Shown one piece after another: positions 6,585 through 62,767 of a stretch of DNA of 64,000 nt; within the stretch, counting starts at the first letter, position 1, and each line of letters begins with the position of its first letter. The notes beneath the pieces were generated by a model. It saw only the letters and a program-made list of their open reading frames with translations, searched no databases and was not told where the DNA came from. The position numbers were made by a program, and so were the translations under genes. This DNA is from Pseudomonas wuhanensis (GTDB lineage Bacteria; Pseudomonadota; Gammaproteobacteria; Pseudomonadales; Pseudomonadaceae), in assembly GCF_030687395.1 (NCBI RefSeq), contig NZ_CP117430.1, positions 186,001 through 250,000 on the forward strand, given 5' to 3'.

Positions 6585-7514
6585 TTAACCGGCCACCACC
6601 GGCGCTGGCGGCTTGGCCACCGAGCACAGGCGAATGGAGTCGGCGAGAATTTCAATCGCCTTCGGCCGCGGGAAACTCGCGCGCCAGGCGATGGCCACGG
6701 TGCGGAACGGCACGGGCGCGCTCAGTGGGCGCACTTCAATCACGCCGGGAGCGTAGTGATGGCTGTCCACCGCCGACAGCGGCAGGATCGAAATACCCAG
6801 GCCGGACGCGACCATGTGGCGAATGGTTTCCAGCGAGCTGGATTCCACCGTGGTGTGTTTGGCGCCGTCGTTGCCTTTGGCCAGGGTCGGGCAGGCTTCC
6901 AGCACTTGATCGCGGAAGCAGTGGCCTTCGCCGAGCAGCAGCAGGCTCTTGTCGTTGAGCAGGGCGGCGTCGATGGATTCTTTTTGCGTCCACGGATGCT
7001 GAGCCGGCATCAGGACGTAGAACGGCTCGTCGTAGAGCTGCAAGGTCAGCACGTCGGCTTCGTTGAACGGCAGGGCGATGATGATTGCGTCGAGCTCGCC
7101 GTTGCGCAGTTTGTCGCGCAGCACGTGGGTGAAGTTTTCTTCGATGTACAACGGCATCTGCGGGGCGACCCGGTGCAGTTGTGGAATCAGGTGCGGGAAC
7201 AGGTACGGGCCGACGGTGTAGATCGCGCCGACTTTGAGCGGGGCGGTCAGCTGGTTCTTGCCGGCCTGGGCCAGTTCGCGGATGCCTTGGGCCTGTTCCA
7301 GGACTTTCTGTGCCTGGGCGACAATGCCTTCACCGACCGGGGTCAGGCGCACGGCGCTCTTGCTGCGCTCGAAAATCAGCACACCGAGTTCGTCTTCAAG
7401 CTTTTTCACGCCTACCGACAGGGTCGGCTGGCTGACGTGGCAACGCTCGGCCGCGTGGCCGAAGTGCTGCTCTTGGGCGAGGGTAACGATGTAGCGTAAT
7501 TCTGTGAGAGTCAT
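6585..7514 (-). CDS. oxyR: OxyR, peroxide-sensing LysR-type regulator
   Basis: 309 aa. An N-terminal winged helix-turn-helix (about 3-60: YIVTLAQEQHFGHAAERCHVSQPTLS) is followed by a LysR effector domain. The two redox cysteines are in place: Cys199 in GHCFRD and Cys208 in LEACP, the same numbering as E. coli OxyR, so disulphide switching by H2O2 is expected. It should activate katB, ahpC/ahpF-type genes and its own operon. First gene of oxyR-recG. Assigned as OxyR rather than a generic LysR because of the paired cysteines and context. Confidence 0.96.
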   Translation of the reverse strand: MTLTELRYIVTLAQEQHFGHAAERCHVSQPTLSVGVKKLEDELGVLIFERSKSAVRLTPVGEGIVAQAQKVLEQAQGIRELAQAGKNQLTAPLKVGAIYTVGPYLFPHLIPQLHRVAPQMPLYIEENFTHVLRDKLRNGELDAIIIALPFNEADVLTLQLYDEPFYVLMPAQHPWTQKESIDAALLNDKSLLLLGEGHCFRDQVLEACPTLAKGNDGAKHTTVESSSLETIRHMVASGLGISILPLSAVDSHHYAPGVIEVRPLSAPVPFRTVAIAWRASFPRPKAIEILADSIRLCSVAKPPAPVVAG

Positions 7515-20720: not shown

Positions 20721-20805
20721 CTGTGGGAGCGGGCTTGCTCGCGAAGGCGGCGACACAATCAGCATTGATGTCGCCTGATACACCGCTTTCGCGAGCAAGC
20801 CCGCT
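20721..20805. repeat. REP pair interrupted by IS110 copy 1
   Basis: First REP CTGTGGGAGCGGGCTTGCTC is complete. The second, GCGAGCAAGCCCGCT, stops at the core CT (20804-20805) and continues after the element as CTCCCACA (22046-22053). Confidence 0.88.
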
Positions 20806-20829
20806 TGTGTCTTGCGCAGGACTTAGACT

Positions 20830-20990
20830 GAAGATGAGAGCGGTGAGTGGCAAGCTGAACGCCCGGAGTGCTAGCAGCACGTGTGGGAGCCCATGCTGCC
20901 ATTCACCTCTCCACTCTGGTTATTGAGCCCGAACAGTTGAACGAGCCGACCTCGAACATTACAAGCGTGGAGCCCAACCAGAGCGCTCTC
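20830..20990 (+). ncRNA. Predicted IS110 bridge RNA (copy 1)
   Basis: Two guide loops are visible. Target loop: outer stem GTGAGTGGCA (20843-20852) with TGCCATTCAC (20897-20906), extended by GAGAG/CTCTC; inside, GCCCG (20861-20865) equals the REP left of the core, a hairpin GTGCT-AGC-AGCAC follows, and TGTGGGAG (20882-20889) is complementary to the REP right side CTCCCACA. Donor loop: stem CTCTGGTT (20914-20921) with AACCAGAG (20976-20983); inside, ACAGTTG (20933-20939) equals the element's right end, a hairpin CGAG-CCGAC-CTCG follows, and ACAAG (20961-20965) is complementary to CTTGT at the left junction. Position upstream of the transposase fits the IS110 group. RNA ends are estimated. Confidence 0.82.
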
Positions 20991-21016
20991 ATTTATGAGT
21001 GTAAGAGGGTTTAGCC

Positions 21017-21946
21017 ATGTTTTCCTGCGCAGGCATTGATGTTTCCAAAGACAGTCTGGAAGTCTGGATTAATTCGCAAGGCATTGGTGCGAGTTTTCCG
21101 AACAGCGCCAGTGGTTTCCCGGTGCTGATTGATTGGTTAAAAGGCTTCGAAGTCACCCGCGTGTTACTGGAAGCCACCGGTGGCTACGAGCGGGGGCCCA
21201 TGAAGGTGCTTCAAAGGGGCGGCTTTGACGTCTTACGAATCAATCCTCGTCGGGCGAAAGATTTTGCCAAGGCAATGGGTTATCGCGCTAAAACAGACGC
21301 GATAGATGCGCGGCTTCTCGCCGAATTTGCAACGATTATAAAGGACGCCGATAGCCGTATCACCAGCGCCGAACAGGACAATTTGCGTGCGCTGGTACAG
21401 CAACGCGAAAACTTTGTTCAGCAGCAAAGTGACGACAGGCGGCGTATCAAAACGGCTTCTGTCGACTCGATAAAACCCTTGTTGCAAAGCCATATCGACT
21501 ATTTAGATCAGGCAATAAAGTCGATAGAACAGCTGATCTGCCAAAGCGCCAAAGACCTGGACAGTGAAAAAATTGCCCGCTTGCGCTCGGTTAAGGGACT
21601 AGGGCTCGTGACCGCAGCCAGCATCATGGCCTACCTGCCTGAGCTGGGAGAGGTTGGACGGCACGAGATCGCAGCACTGGCAGGGATCGCCCCTTACAAC
21701 GACGACAGCGGCAACCACGAAGGGCCTCGTCATATAAGCGGTGGCCGATTTGCCGTGCGACGTGCGATGTACATGGCCAGTTGGGCTGTGATTTTGCGAC
21801 AACCCGAGTTCAAAGCCCGATATGACGCGCTTCGCCTGAGAGGTAAATGCGCGAAAGTGGCGCTGATCGCCTGCATGCGGGTGTTGTTGATAAGGCTGAA
21901 CGCGATGATCCGTGACCAAACTGAGTGGAGAGAGCAGGCAGCCTAA
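21017..21946 (+). CDS. IS110 family transposase (copy 1)
   Basis: 309 aa. An N-terminal RuvC-like DEDD domain (about 4-150: CAGIDVSKDSLEVWI, LLEATGGYERG, KTDAIDARLLAEF) is joined by a coiled segment to the C-terminal Tnp/transposase-20 domain (about 185-275: LRSVKGLGLVTAASIMAYLPELG, IAALAGIAPYNDDSG). The catalytic Ser is expected in the HISGGRFAVRRAMYMAS region. IS110 recombinases insert a circular intermediate at a target chosen by a bridge RNA. The protein is identical to that of copy 2, so both are probably recent. Confidence 0.95.
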   Translation: MFSCAGIDVSKDSLEVWINSQGIGASFPNSASGFPVLIDWLKGFEVTRVLLEATGGYERGPMKVLQRGGFDVLRINPRRAKDFAKAMGYRAKTDAIDARLLAEFATIIKDADSRITSAEQDNLRALVQQRENFVQQQSDDRRRIKTASVDSIKPLLQSHIDYLDQAIKSIEQLICQSAKDLDSEKIARLRSVKGLGLVTAASIMAYLPELGEVGRHEIAALAGIAPYNDDSGNHEGPRHISGGRFAVRRAMYMASWAVILRQPEFKARYDALRLRGKCAKVALIACMRVLLIRLNAMIRDQTEWREQAA

Positions 21947-22098
21947 ACAGACTGCTTGCTCATTTGGGAAATCACATGGTTTGAGACTGTGGAAGTTCGG
22001 CTGCCCTTTGATCAAACTTCAAAATAAAAGACATCAAGACAGTTGCTCCCACATTTAATCTCGGGTGTTCACACATAACTGTGTTCACCGCAGATCTA

Positions 22099-26805: not shown

Positions 26806-27799
26806 TCAAGCTTTTAGCAGATGTTTTTCGCTGAAAAGCTTGGCCGTATCGAAATCCTCTCCAGCACGTATGCAGGCCCACAAGCCTGTCAGGTATTTGC
26901 GCATAACCGCGCAGATGGCCTGCATTTTTCGTTTTCCACGACCGACTAGCACGTCGTAAAAAGCCTTCACATAAGGATCGCAACGGATCGCTGACATGGC
27001 AGGCATGAACATCGCCGAGCGCAGGTAGGCGTTGCCACCCTTGCTCAGGCGCCCGGGTTTGTCGATGCTCGTTCCAGACTGGGTCAGTCGCACGTCCAGC
27101 CCTGCATAACGACTGATCTGCGGGGATTTGAGTGTCACTGGCAGGGTCGTCAGTTCAGCCAGCACTGCAAATGTCGAGACCTCACCCATTCCGGGTGCAG
27201 CCACCATGTGATCAACTGCTCCTGCAAATTGGACAGCTAGCGATGATGTCTCGCCCGGCTCGCCTAAACCGTTCGATGCGCCTGCCGAACATCGCAATAG
27301 CTTCTTCTCCTCATCCTCAATCAGCATCGCTGAAGTTGTTTCGGTCGCTTGAAGGGCATGCAGCTCATTCTTCGCTCGGGTGCAGTGGCAGGTCAGACGG
27401 TTGATATGCCGGCCAATGGCACGCAACTCAAGCTGGGCGGGCTTGGAGGAGTCCACAAGCGAGGCGTCATGCGTTCGCCGTACTCCGCTAGCAACTGGGC
27501 GTCGATGGCGTCCGTTTTACTGTGTTGAAGCATCAGTCTTGCAAAATTGCGGGAGCTTTTCGGGTTGATCACAGAAACCGGCAAGCCTGCAGTGCTTAAC
27601 TCCAGGGCCAGATCAGGTAATAAATCCCGGTGGCTTCCATGACCACAGAAAGCGGTTTGAGTGCTATCAGCTTTTTCACGGCAGCCTTGCGCCCCTTGGG
27701 CGTTTGAGCGATATCCCACGAGCCAGCTGCACGGCCTTTGTCACGCCATCCCATTGCTGTGGTGCGAGAACCAACATCCAATCCGACGTGTACACTCAT
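26806..27799 (-). pseudogene. Broken IS110-family transposase (different from copies 1/2)
   Basis: Three pieces in different frames make one transposase: 27596-27799 (MSVHVGLDVGSRTTAMGW ... VVMEATGIYYLIW), about 27460-27600 (ALELSTAGLPVSVINPKSSRNFA ... KTDAIDAQLLAEY), and 26806-27456 (LRAIGRHINRL ... MVAAPGMGEVSTFAVLAEL ... ISRYAGLDVRLTQSG ... FSEKHLLKA). At least two frameshifts, near 27600 and 27455, destroy it. It retains GLDVG and DAIDA marks of the DEDD domain. It has little similarity to the other IS110 here. Element ends could not be found. Confidence 0.85.
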
Positions 27800-57175: not shown

Positions 57176-57274
57176 CAACTGTCTTGATGTCTTTTATTTT
57201 GAAGTTTGATCAAAGGGCAGCCGAACTTCCACAGTCTCAAACCATGTGATTTCCCAAATGAGCAAGCAGTCTGT

Positions 57275-58204
57275 TTAGGCTGCCTGCTCTCTCCACTCAG
57301 TTTGGTCACGGATCATCGCGTTCAGCCTTATCAACAACACCCGCATGCAGGCGATCAGCGCCACTTTCGCGCATTTACCTCTCAGGCGAAGCGCGTCATA
57401 TCGGGCTTTGAACTCGGGTTGTCGCAAAATCACAGCCCAACTGGCCATGTACATCGCACGTCGCACGGCAAATCGGCCACCGCTTATATGACGAGGCCCT
57501 TCGTGGTTGCCGCTGTCGTCGTTGTAAGGGGCGATCCCTGCCAGTGCTGCGATCTCGTGCCGTCCAACCTCTCCCAGCTCAGGCAGGTAGGCCATGATGC
57601 TGGCTGCGGTCACGAGCCCTAGTCCCTTAACCGAGCGCAAGCGGGCAATTTTTTCACTGTCCAGGTCTTTGGCGCTTTGGCAGATCAGCTGTTCTATCGA
57701 CTTTATTGCCTGATCTAAATAGTCGATATGGCTTTGCAACAAGGGTTTTATCGAGTCGACAGAAGCCGTTTTGATACGCCGCCTGTCGTCACTTTGCTGC
57801 TGAACAAAGTTTTCGCGTTGCTGTACCAGCGCACGCAAATTGTCCTGTTCGGCGCTGGTGATACGGCTATCGGCGTCCTTTATAATCGTTGCAAATTCGG
57901 CGAGAAGCCGCGCATCTATCGCGTCTGTTTTAGCGCGATAACCCATTGCCTTGGCAAAATCTTTCGCCCGACGAGGATTGATTCGTAAGACGTCAAAGCC
58001 GCCCCTTTGAAGCACCTTCATGGGCCCCCGCTCGTAGCCACCGGTGGCTTCCAGTAACACGCGGGTGACTTCGAAGCCTTTTAACCAATCAATCAGCACC
58101 GGGAAACCACTGGCGCTGTTCGGAAAACTCGCACCAATGCCTTGCGAATTAATCCAGACTTCCAGACTGTCTTTGGAAACATCAATGCCTGCGCAGGAAA
58201 ACAT
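57275..58204 (-). CDS. IS110 family transposase (copy 2)
   Basis: 309 aa, identical in sequence to the transposase at 21017-21946 (GIDVSKDSLEVWI, LEATGGYERG, KTDAIDARLL; C-terminal GIAPYNDDSG). Full length, so either copy could mobilise both. Confidence 0.95.
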   Translation of the reverse strand: MFSCAGIDVSKDSLEVWINSQGIGASFPNSASGFPVLIDWLKGFEVTRVLLEATGGYERGPMKVLQRGGFDVLRINPRRAKDFAKAMGYRAKTDAIDARLLAEFATIIKDADSRITSAEQDNLRALVQQRENFVQQQSDDRRRIKTASVDSIKPLLQSHIDYLDQAIKSIEQLICQSAKDLDSEKIARLRSVKGLGLVTAASIMAYLPELGEVGRHEIAALAGIAPYNDDSGNHEGPRHISGGRFAVRRAMYMASWAVILRQPEFKARYDALRLRGKCAKVALIACMRVLLIRLNAMIRDQTEWREQAA

Positions 58205-58230
58205 GGCTAAACCCTCTTACACTCATAAAT

Positions 58231-58391
58231 GAGAGCGCTCTGGTTGGGCTCCACGCTTGTAATGTTCGAGGTCGGCTCGTTCAACTGTTCGGGCTCAATA
58301 ACCAGAGTGGAGAGGTGAATGGCAGCATGGGCTCCCACACGTGCTGCTAGCACTCCGGGCGTTCAGCTTGCCACTCACCGCTCTCATCTTC
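58231..58391 (-). ncRNA. Predicted IS110 bridge RNA (copy 2)
   Basis: Mirror of the RNA at 20830-20990 with the same guides. The right-target guide (CTCCCACA on the plus strand) is at 58332-58339 and the left-target guide CGGGC at 58356-58360. Because the guides are unchanged, both copies address the same REP target. Confidence 0.8.
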
Positions 58392-58589
58392 AGTCTAAGT
58401 CCTGCGCAAGACACAAGCGGGCTTGCTCGCGAAGGGATCGACCCAATTCAGGATTTGTCCCAAATCTGCGGATCAATTCCTCTCTAGTGGTTTTCCTTGG
58501 CATTTAGCACCAGTGTCTTGATTTTTATGCTTGCTGAAACGTTTCTTCAAGTTTATAAAATTGGCACAACTCCAAGAAAGGCTGCTGCC

Positions 58590-62445: not shown

Positions 62446-62506
62446 GGTGCAGTTCTCGGGATCAAATGAAGAAAACTGCCTCTGATCGTCGCCAAACGAA
62501 AAAGGT

Positions 62507-62582
62507 GGCAGCCATGCGCGGGTTGGCGAACCGGTGACGCCCGAAAACCGGCAGACCCGAAGGTCTCCCACGCATAGCCGCC
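62507..62582 (-). ncRNA. C4-antisense-like structured leader RNA (copy 2)
   Basis: A 16-bp closing stem GGCGGCUAUGCGUGGG with CCCGCGCAUGGCUGCC contains the same UUCG hairpin AGACC-UUCG-GGUCT and a CCGGU hairpin. The stem differs from that at 1904-1976 by compensatory pairs (G-C to A-U) and G-U changes. The unpaired UCGCCAA (plus 62523-62529) is complementary to UUGGCGA (plus 62489-62495) in the leader of the BRO gene, 11 nt past the stem. Confidence 0.7.
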
Positions 62583-62767
62583 ATAATTCGAGATGGGAAC
62601 AAATTCCTCGGTCGAATGTGGTCGCGGTGCGTCGGGGTCTTCCAGGTCGCCAAACCCAGAGCTGAACATTCAGCTGGGGATGAGCATAGAAACTGGAGGC
62701 CTTACGACGCAATCGGACGGCGGTGGTGTTCTTTGTAGGAAGTTGCTGGGATGTTTGCGGGGCTTAA

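Follow-up and report, generated by a model that had tools for sequence, protein, structure and literature searches.

The insertion sequence at 20804-22047 of the window (the whole 64,000-nucleotide stretch of Pseudomonas wuhanensis DNA analysed here) is very probably an IS110-group, IS621-like element with a predicted bridge RNA that reads REP sequences. This reading, first made in the original prediction from the DNA alone, is supported by an IS621-like recombinase with the catalytic residues, by the CT core and the REP targets, and by what the comparisons below display directly: the anatomy of the element, compensatory changes in the RNA structure, covariation of target guides with insertion sites, covariation of donor guides with element ends in three distant groups, and a junction promoter with a constant 17-bp spacing. 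Features and coordinates are collected in Table 1.

Table 1. Parts of the IS110-family element, the REP that it interrupts and the second copy in the window
Feature	Position	Strand	Basis
Interrupted REP, left part, ending in left target GCCCG	20788..20803	+	sequence, own copies
CT core, left copy, common to element and interrupted REP	20804..20805	+	in 11/11 own copies
IS110-family insertion sequence between both cores, 1242 bp with one core	20806..22045	+	11 copies
-10-like box TAGACT of right end-left end junction promoter	20824..20829	+	17-bp spacer in 22/22
Predicted bridge RNA, conserved part (model R1)	20835..20991	+	fold, covariance model, relatives
Target-binding loop, stem 20842-20855/20895-20907	20842..20907	+	double changes at 7/13 pairs
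Left target guide GCCCG	20861..20865	+	sequence, shuffles, insertion sites
Right target guide TGTGGGAG, pairs with CTCCCACA	20882..20889	+	sequence, shuffles, insertion sites
Donor-binding loop, stem 20914-20919/20978-20983	20914..20983	+	2/6 pairs double-changed, 100% paired
Left donor guide ACAGTTG, equal to right end of element	20933..20939	+	sequence, shuffles, distant groups
Right donor guide ACAAG, pairs with CTTGT over core and left end	20961..20965	+	sequence, shuffles
IS110 recombinase gene, 309 aa, PF01548 and PF02371	21017..21946	+	Pfam, IS621 alignment
CT core, right copy	22046..22047	+	sequence, own copies
Interrupted REP, right part CCCACA, the right target	22048..22053	+	sequence, own copies
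Second full copy of the same IS110 element	57176..58415	-	protein search and covariance model

Boundaries, copies and recombinase

The boundaries of the element were set by comparing its 11 copies at different sites of its own genome, where the covariance model of the RNA gave exactly 11 matches; the CT cores are at the positions given in Table 1, and the element is 1242 bp long in all three copies measured. Eight copies have intact frames matching all 309 residues, L009 is one codon shorter, and the frame is broken in two (L010/L014 and L011-L013). Over 213 nt the left ends of all 11 agree apart from one base in L010, so that conservation of the guides can be judged from relatives and not from these copies. 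The second copy in the window, likewise in a REP, has its recombinase at 57278-58204 and its RNA at 58230-58386, its outer ends being obtained by arithmetic from the first copy. Elsewhere in the window, we observed two diverged IS110-type recombinase fragments (26863-27599, minus strand; L017 and L018, with 34% and 49% identity to the query), a DDE transposase of 433 aa (PF01609; 17750-19051, minus strand), and two Rfam matches to C4 antisense RNA, both on the minus strand (1898-1982 and 62501-62588; 65.4 and 81.7 bits).

The original prediction expected all other copies to lie at GCCCG-CT-CCCACA. The right half of this expectation held throughout, with CTCCCACA at 11/11 copies, and the left half at 10/11: L008 adjoins ACCCG in a left flank, ATCACCCG, that is not a REP, in which four of the five positions are kept and the fifth can form a G-T wobble. 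L008/L194, around 6631-6650, lies at a synteny breakpoint. In a joined-flank search of 38 genomes, its own included, the two flanks of L008 were found at different places in G005, G011, G016 and G019. Inspection of 4-kb stretches of G005, G016 and G019 revealed no reciprocal junction for L008, and beyond its flanks these stretches matched the flanks of other own copies only by short REP-like pieces. Since the flanks are separate in four relatives and the stretches compared hold no reciprocal junction, L008 marks a rearrangement breakpoint.

The 309-aa protein matches PF01548 (5e-22) and PF02371 (8e-15) in Pfam. At E <= 0.01 it matches just two distinct sequences among solved chains, namely IS621 (PDB 8wt6; E 7e-32, 114.5 bits) and ISCro4 (9t56; E 7e-31). 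By a hand count on the alignment, and with an inferred offset between chain and paper numbering, D8, E52, D94, D97 and S231 align with D11, E60, D102, D105 and S241 of IS621, the DEDD and serine residues named in the structure paper (PMC11208158). In a protein search, 5767 of 8000 scored candidates matched at E <= 1e-30, and among the 120 matches listed, all those with a named organism are from Pseudomonas and none bears an IS name. With at most five candidates scored per genome, 133 of 398 Pseudomonas genomes gave recombinase matches at E <= 0.001, many of them distant; a scan of genome contigs yielded 11 loci. The element had no match in the plasmid collection searched, nor in Rfam at gathering thresholds.

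A conserved two-loop RNA at the left end

The two loops described in the original prediction are present, the first with a stem (20843-20852/20897-20906) containing one G-U pair and the second with 8/8 pairs formed (20914-20921/20976-20983). All four guides were recovered at their places, parted in the first loop by the hairpin GTGC/GCAC (20868-20871/20877-20880) and in the second by CGAG/CTCG (20942-20945/20951-20954). None of 100000 dinucleotide shuffles reproduced the four guides in the order of the IS110 (IS621-type) scheme, and TGTGGGAG followed by ACAGTTG arose in 4/100000 shuffles of 20831-21016. The short guides alone carry little weight: shuffling that region yields GCCCG 29% of the time and ACAAG 21%. 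The fold of 20830-20995 has a z of -4.97, and 0/200 shuffles were equally stable.

For covariation, 25 left ends of relatives were aligned, of which 22 are distinct once trimmed to the RNA. Across these 22, the two-loop model of 37 pairs is formed in 98.5% of 812 cells. Double changes occur at 11 of the 37 pairs (29 cells), compared with 3.4 pairs and 7.7 cells in shuffles; slid-partner controls gave no more than 2 pairs. RNAalifold, run unaided, found 43 pairs with 12 double-changed. An upstream noncoding RNA region with two internal loops, one of the features of group membership, is thus present by prediction and covariation. In a strictly filtered survey that scored no more than seven candidates per genome, the covariance model matched in 39 of 398 Pseudomonas genomes at E <= 0.01.

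Target guides and insertion sites

The 198 loci examined gave, in 37 Pseudomonas genomes, 133 insertion sites that are distinct in their 40-nt left flanks. This number supersedes an earlier count of 89, in which identical 20-nt REP flanks had been merged; it excludes L160 and L172 (no left junction), 13 entries, several of them repeats, with flanks under 40 nt or N beside the junction, and also L045, L048, L179 and the distant groups L108-L119. CT is built into the junction finder as a requirement; a scan free of this condition found CT at 152/152 left ends, repeats of loci included.

The left target guide agrees with the five bases left of CT in full at 61 of the 133 sites and with wobble at 59, with a mismatch at the remaining 13 (Table 2). 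When the sites were arranged as 38 genome-guide units, 163/190 positions matched, compared with 143.7 for permuted targets (sd 2.5, maximum 156); for the 12 distinct guides the match was 50/60, compared with 36.7 (maximum 49). No permutation in 100000 equalled the observed match in either arrangement, figures that are descriptive and not true probabilities, the sequences being related and their relatedness left in. The right guide, taken over the core and five further bases, matches its target at 93/95 sites, among them seven with variant guides (six CTCCTAC in G364 and one CTTCCTA in G161), and both mismatches are in G156. The left and right target guides therefore match the bottom and top target strands and covary with them, with misses at 13/133 sites on the left and 2/95 on the right.

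Table 2. Left target guides and the words found left of CT at their insertion sites
Guide	Sites
GCCCG	42 GCCCG, 6 ACCCG, 3 GCCCC, 1 GGCCG
GTCCG	46 GCCCG, 1 GTCCG, 1 GCCAG
GCTCG	6 GCCCG
ACCCG	6 ACCCG
ATTCG	6 ATTCG
GCCCC	3 GCCCC, 2 AGCCC
GCCAG	2 GCCAG
GCCGG	1 GCCGG
GTCCC	1 GCCCC
GCCGC	3 GGCCG, 1 ACCCG
TAGCG	1 GCGCG
GTGCG	1 GCCCG

The left mismatches, counted with the guide in a fixed register, are of several kinds. All three G165 copies have the guide GCCCG at a GCCCC target. The three G392 copies and one in G126 would fit with the guide shifted by 1 or 2 nt. Single cases are found in G188 (1/1), G158 (1/3), G308 (1/6) and G088 (1/2), and one each in G117 and G197, whose copies look decayed. The finest correspondence is in G319, where the left ends of L175 (C20) and L215 (C39), followed for 158 nt from the core, differ by one base, which falls in the left target guide, and the resulting guides GCCGG and GCCAG each adjoin a REP with their own base. 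Because the three right ends in G319 are of two slightly different types, these copies are close and not wholly identical.

A different explanation would be that the recombinase itself recognises REP DNA or its hairpin and that the left end is a structured 5' leader controlling translation, like the 5'-UTR of ISPpu9, which is 244 nt long and whose structure is reported to limit translation, with an antisense RNA that relieves it (PMC8450116). Here, too, the left end is a leader, lying directly before an SD-like AGAGG ahead of the recombinase gene. We consider this explanation improbable, since it accounts neither for the joint change of guide and target words, nor for the one-base guide difference in G319, nor for the fit of the L008 left flank, which is no REP. 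As for the leader itself, SD accessibility across the 25 left ends, compared between folds that include or lack the 5' strand of the outer stem, followed no pattern; translation control by the RNA fold was dropped as a candidate on this inconsistent SD-occlusion result. A role as bridge RNA and a role as leader are compatible and could coexist.

Guides and host REP subtypes

Host genomes differ in their REPs: G000 has 813 GCCCG and 0 GCCCC, G018 has 0 GCCCG and 274 ATTCG, and G309 has 13 GCCCG and 1125 GCCCC. In 19 genomes, we counted five REP subtype patterns, each with CTCCYAC after it; 17 of these genomes can be judged, G392 and G161 being set aside for words outside the counted patterns. 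In 13 of the 17 (G000, G046, G310, G010, G018, G308, G332, G319, G309, G188, G158, G364 and G088), the most frequent of the five subtypes is the one that the guide fits when wobble is allowed, with G332 as a weak case (44 sites, and 29 for the reversed pattern used as control). Another subtype is commoner in G219, G265 and G165, and in G289 the fitting subtype comes first only by wobble.

These counts bear on the possibility that guide and target are alike because the element occupies the commonest REP of its host and its left end retains a REP relic. The 13 genomes are what such a process would give, and so is G165, in which 3/3 copies sit in GCCCC, the commonest subtype (406 sites, with 21 of GCCCG), against their guide. 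G265 and G219, however, separate guide from abundance. In G265, with the guide ACCCG, 6/6 copies are at ACCCG although GCCCG is 6.5 times commoner (169 and 1103 sites); ACCCG makes up 0.115 of the counted sites, and this outcome would have a probability of 2e-6 were abundance alone decisive. In G219, with the guide GCCCG, 5/5 copies are at GCCCG (314 sites) though GCC(A/G)G is commoner (516 sites; probability 0.007 on abundance alone). The guide words, moreover, correspond to opposite target strands and have a conserved hairpin between them, an arrangement that would not arise from a relic of a REP. An origin of the likeness in abundance and a relic is therefore very improbable, and we keep to guides that read their targets.

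The RNA of G165 is identical over 155 nt to those of G121 and G175. We read G165 as having a lagging guide, and its sites also show that a single mismatch next to the core can be accommodated. The copies of G308 (3 ACCCG, 2 GCCCG and 1 GGCCG, in a host with 204 ACCCG and 220 GCCCG sites) and of G289 (2/2 ACCCG; 88 ACCCG and 68 GCCCG sites) are consistent with a guide G that accepts wobble. We lean slightly towards the idea that the bridge-RNA guide evolves base by base with the host REPs: when a guide arrives in a host with another REP subtype, a wobble or single mismatch would come first and the matching mutation afterwards. Candidates for the first step would be G165, which is mismatched, and G308, where a guide G faces both A and G targets; candidates for matched guides would be G309 and G158 (GCCCC), G265 (ACCCG), G018 (ATTCG) and G319 with its two guides.

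Donor guides and the junction promoter

Close relatives share one left donor guide and right end in 24/25 cases, the exception being G156 with ACAGTTA for ACAGTTG, and the right donor guide is identical in 25/25. Because the donor guides hardly vary there, close relatives offer no covariation test of donor pairing. In the distant groups G188b, G012 and G266, whose right ends were read from copies of the respective group, the left donor guide changes together with the right end (ACGGTTGC, ACAGTATCT and ACGGTATCTA, respectively); G339, G018 and G161 are outside that result. The left donor guide thus agrees with the element's own joined ends by match and covariation, and the right one by match.

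For IS621, the core has been described as part of all four pairings (PMC11208160). Here it is not: the right guides of the query do include the core, whereas the left target guide pairs with the core C at 66/133 sites and with the core T at 0/133, and ACAGTTG/A is directly followed by CT in 0/25 left donor guides. In G018 and G364, which have an extra right-end base, ACAGTTGACT would cover CT one base later. We regard core pairing as an IS621 detail and do not take this departure as a bar to IS110-group membership.

Joining the right end to the left end gives TTGCTT-17-TAGACT, the -35-like TTGCTT being composed, once circularised, of TTG (22043-22045), CT and T (20806). With the -10 sought as TA[AG]NNT in a 12-nt window, the spacer was 17 bp in all 22 elements examined. 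In G018 and G364 (L100-L107), TTGGCT replaces TTGCTT, the right end is one base longer and the left end one base shorter, so that the extra base is offset by the lost one and the 17-bp spacing is kept. As judged from sequence, this is a putative sigma-70-like junction promoter, and it fits the one described for IS621 (PMC11208160, PMC11208158).

Proposed mechanism and relation to known systems

For transcription, binding, circle formation and strand exchange, we infer the following scheme from the IS621 work. The promoter would arise only where the right and left ends join in the excised circle, and the left noncoding end would be transcribed from it as the bridge RNA. In the target loop, GCCCG would bind the bottom strand on the left side of CT, and TGTGGGAG would bind CTCCCACA on the top strand; ACAGTTG-CT-TGT, the sequence formed where the ends of the element join, would be read by the donor loop. 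The DEDD/serine recombinase would exchange strands at CT, and the circle would enter the REP in one orientation.

The bridge-RNA mechanism and the targeting of REPs by IS110 elements are already published. IS110 bridge RNAs, their guide order, the CT core, the junction promoter, the tolerance of rG:dT and covariation over thousands of elements are described in PMC11208160 and PMC11208158. IS621 of E. coli resembles our element in its DEDD/serine recombinase, its upstream two-loop RNA with left target, right target, left donor and right donor guides in this order, its CT core, its junction promoter between right and left ends, its REP target and its rG:dT tolerance. Unlike IS621, our element reads another REP word, its left target guide has no pair to the core T, its right target guide matches 8 positions with the core included, and its recombinase has diverged.

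REP targeting by ISPpu9, ISPpu10 and ISPa11 had been published by 2006 (PMC1525189). ISPpu9 and ISPpu10 of P. putida KT2440 are likewise IS110-family elements, found only in REPs in 7/7 copies each (PMC1525189, PMC8450116), and described as lying at one fixed REP position with a 2-bp direct repeat. ISPpu9 differs in the antisense RNA Asr9 and the downstream Ssr9 described for it (PMC8450116). ISPa11 is also guided by RNA to Pseudomonas REPs, but it belongs to the IS1111 group and has its seekRNA downstream of the gene with the guide order reversed (PMC11187229). That our element is itself of the IS1111 type and uses a seekRNA, as ISPa11 might suggest, is close to negligible in probability: its conserved RNA lies upstream of the gene with no long noncoding region downstream, and within that RNA the match to the bottom strand precedes the other, each of these positions being an IS110 trait (PMC11187229), and IS621 and ISCro4 are its sole solved-chain matches.

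Natural redirection, in which guide and target have changed together, is described for the pairs ISEc11/ISXne4 and ISEc21/ISMch6 (PMC11187229). Compared with these pairs, the present case shows several steps in one lineage that follow REP subtypes, the smallest being one guide base that differs between left ends in the same genome. The new part is modest: guides follow host REP subtypes, with G165 as the lagging exception. No paper listed by searches of the open PMC literature describes a lineage whose guides follow the REP subtypes of its hosts, a collection outside which lie most subscription papers and all bioRxiv preprints.

These results show that a genome sequence allows the published bridge-RNA scheme to be read off directly and then tested against natural variation; a dozen natural guide words in related elements are supplied here with their targets. 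The single-base pair in G319 and the wobble cases are ready pairs with which one-base control of insertion can be measured, and the host comparison offers a route to study how insertion sequences keep pace with changing host repeats. If guides do evolve base by base with the REPs of their hosts, REPs and IS110 guides together would document in nature how RNA retargeting proceeds and which wobble rules it obeys.
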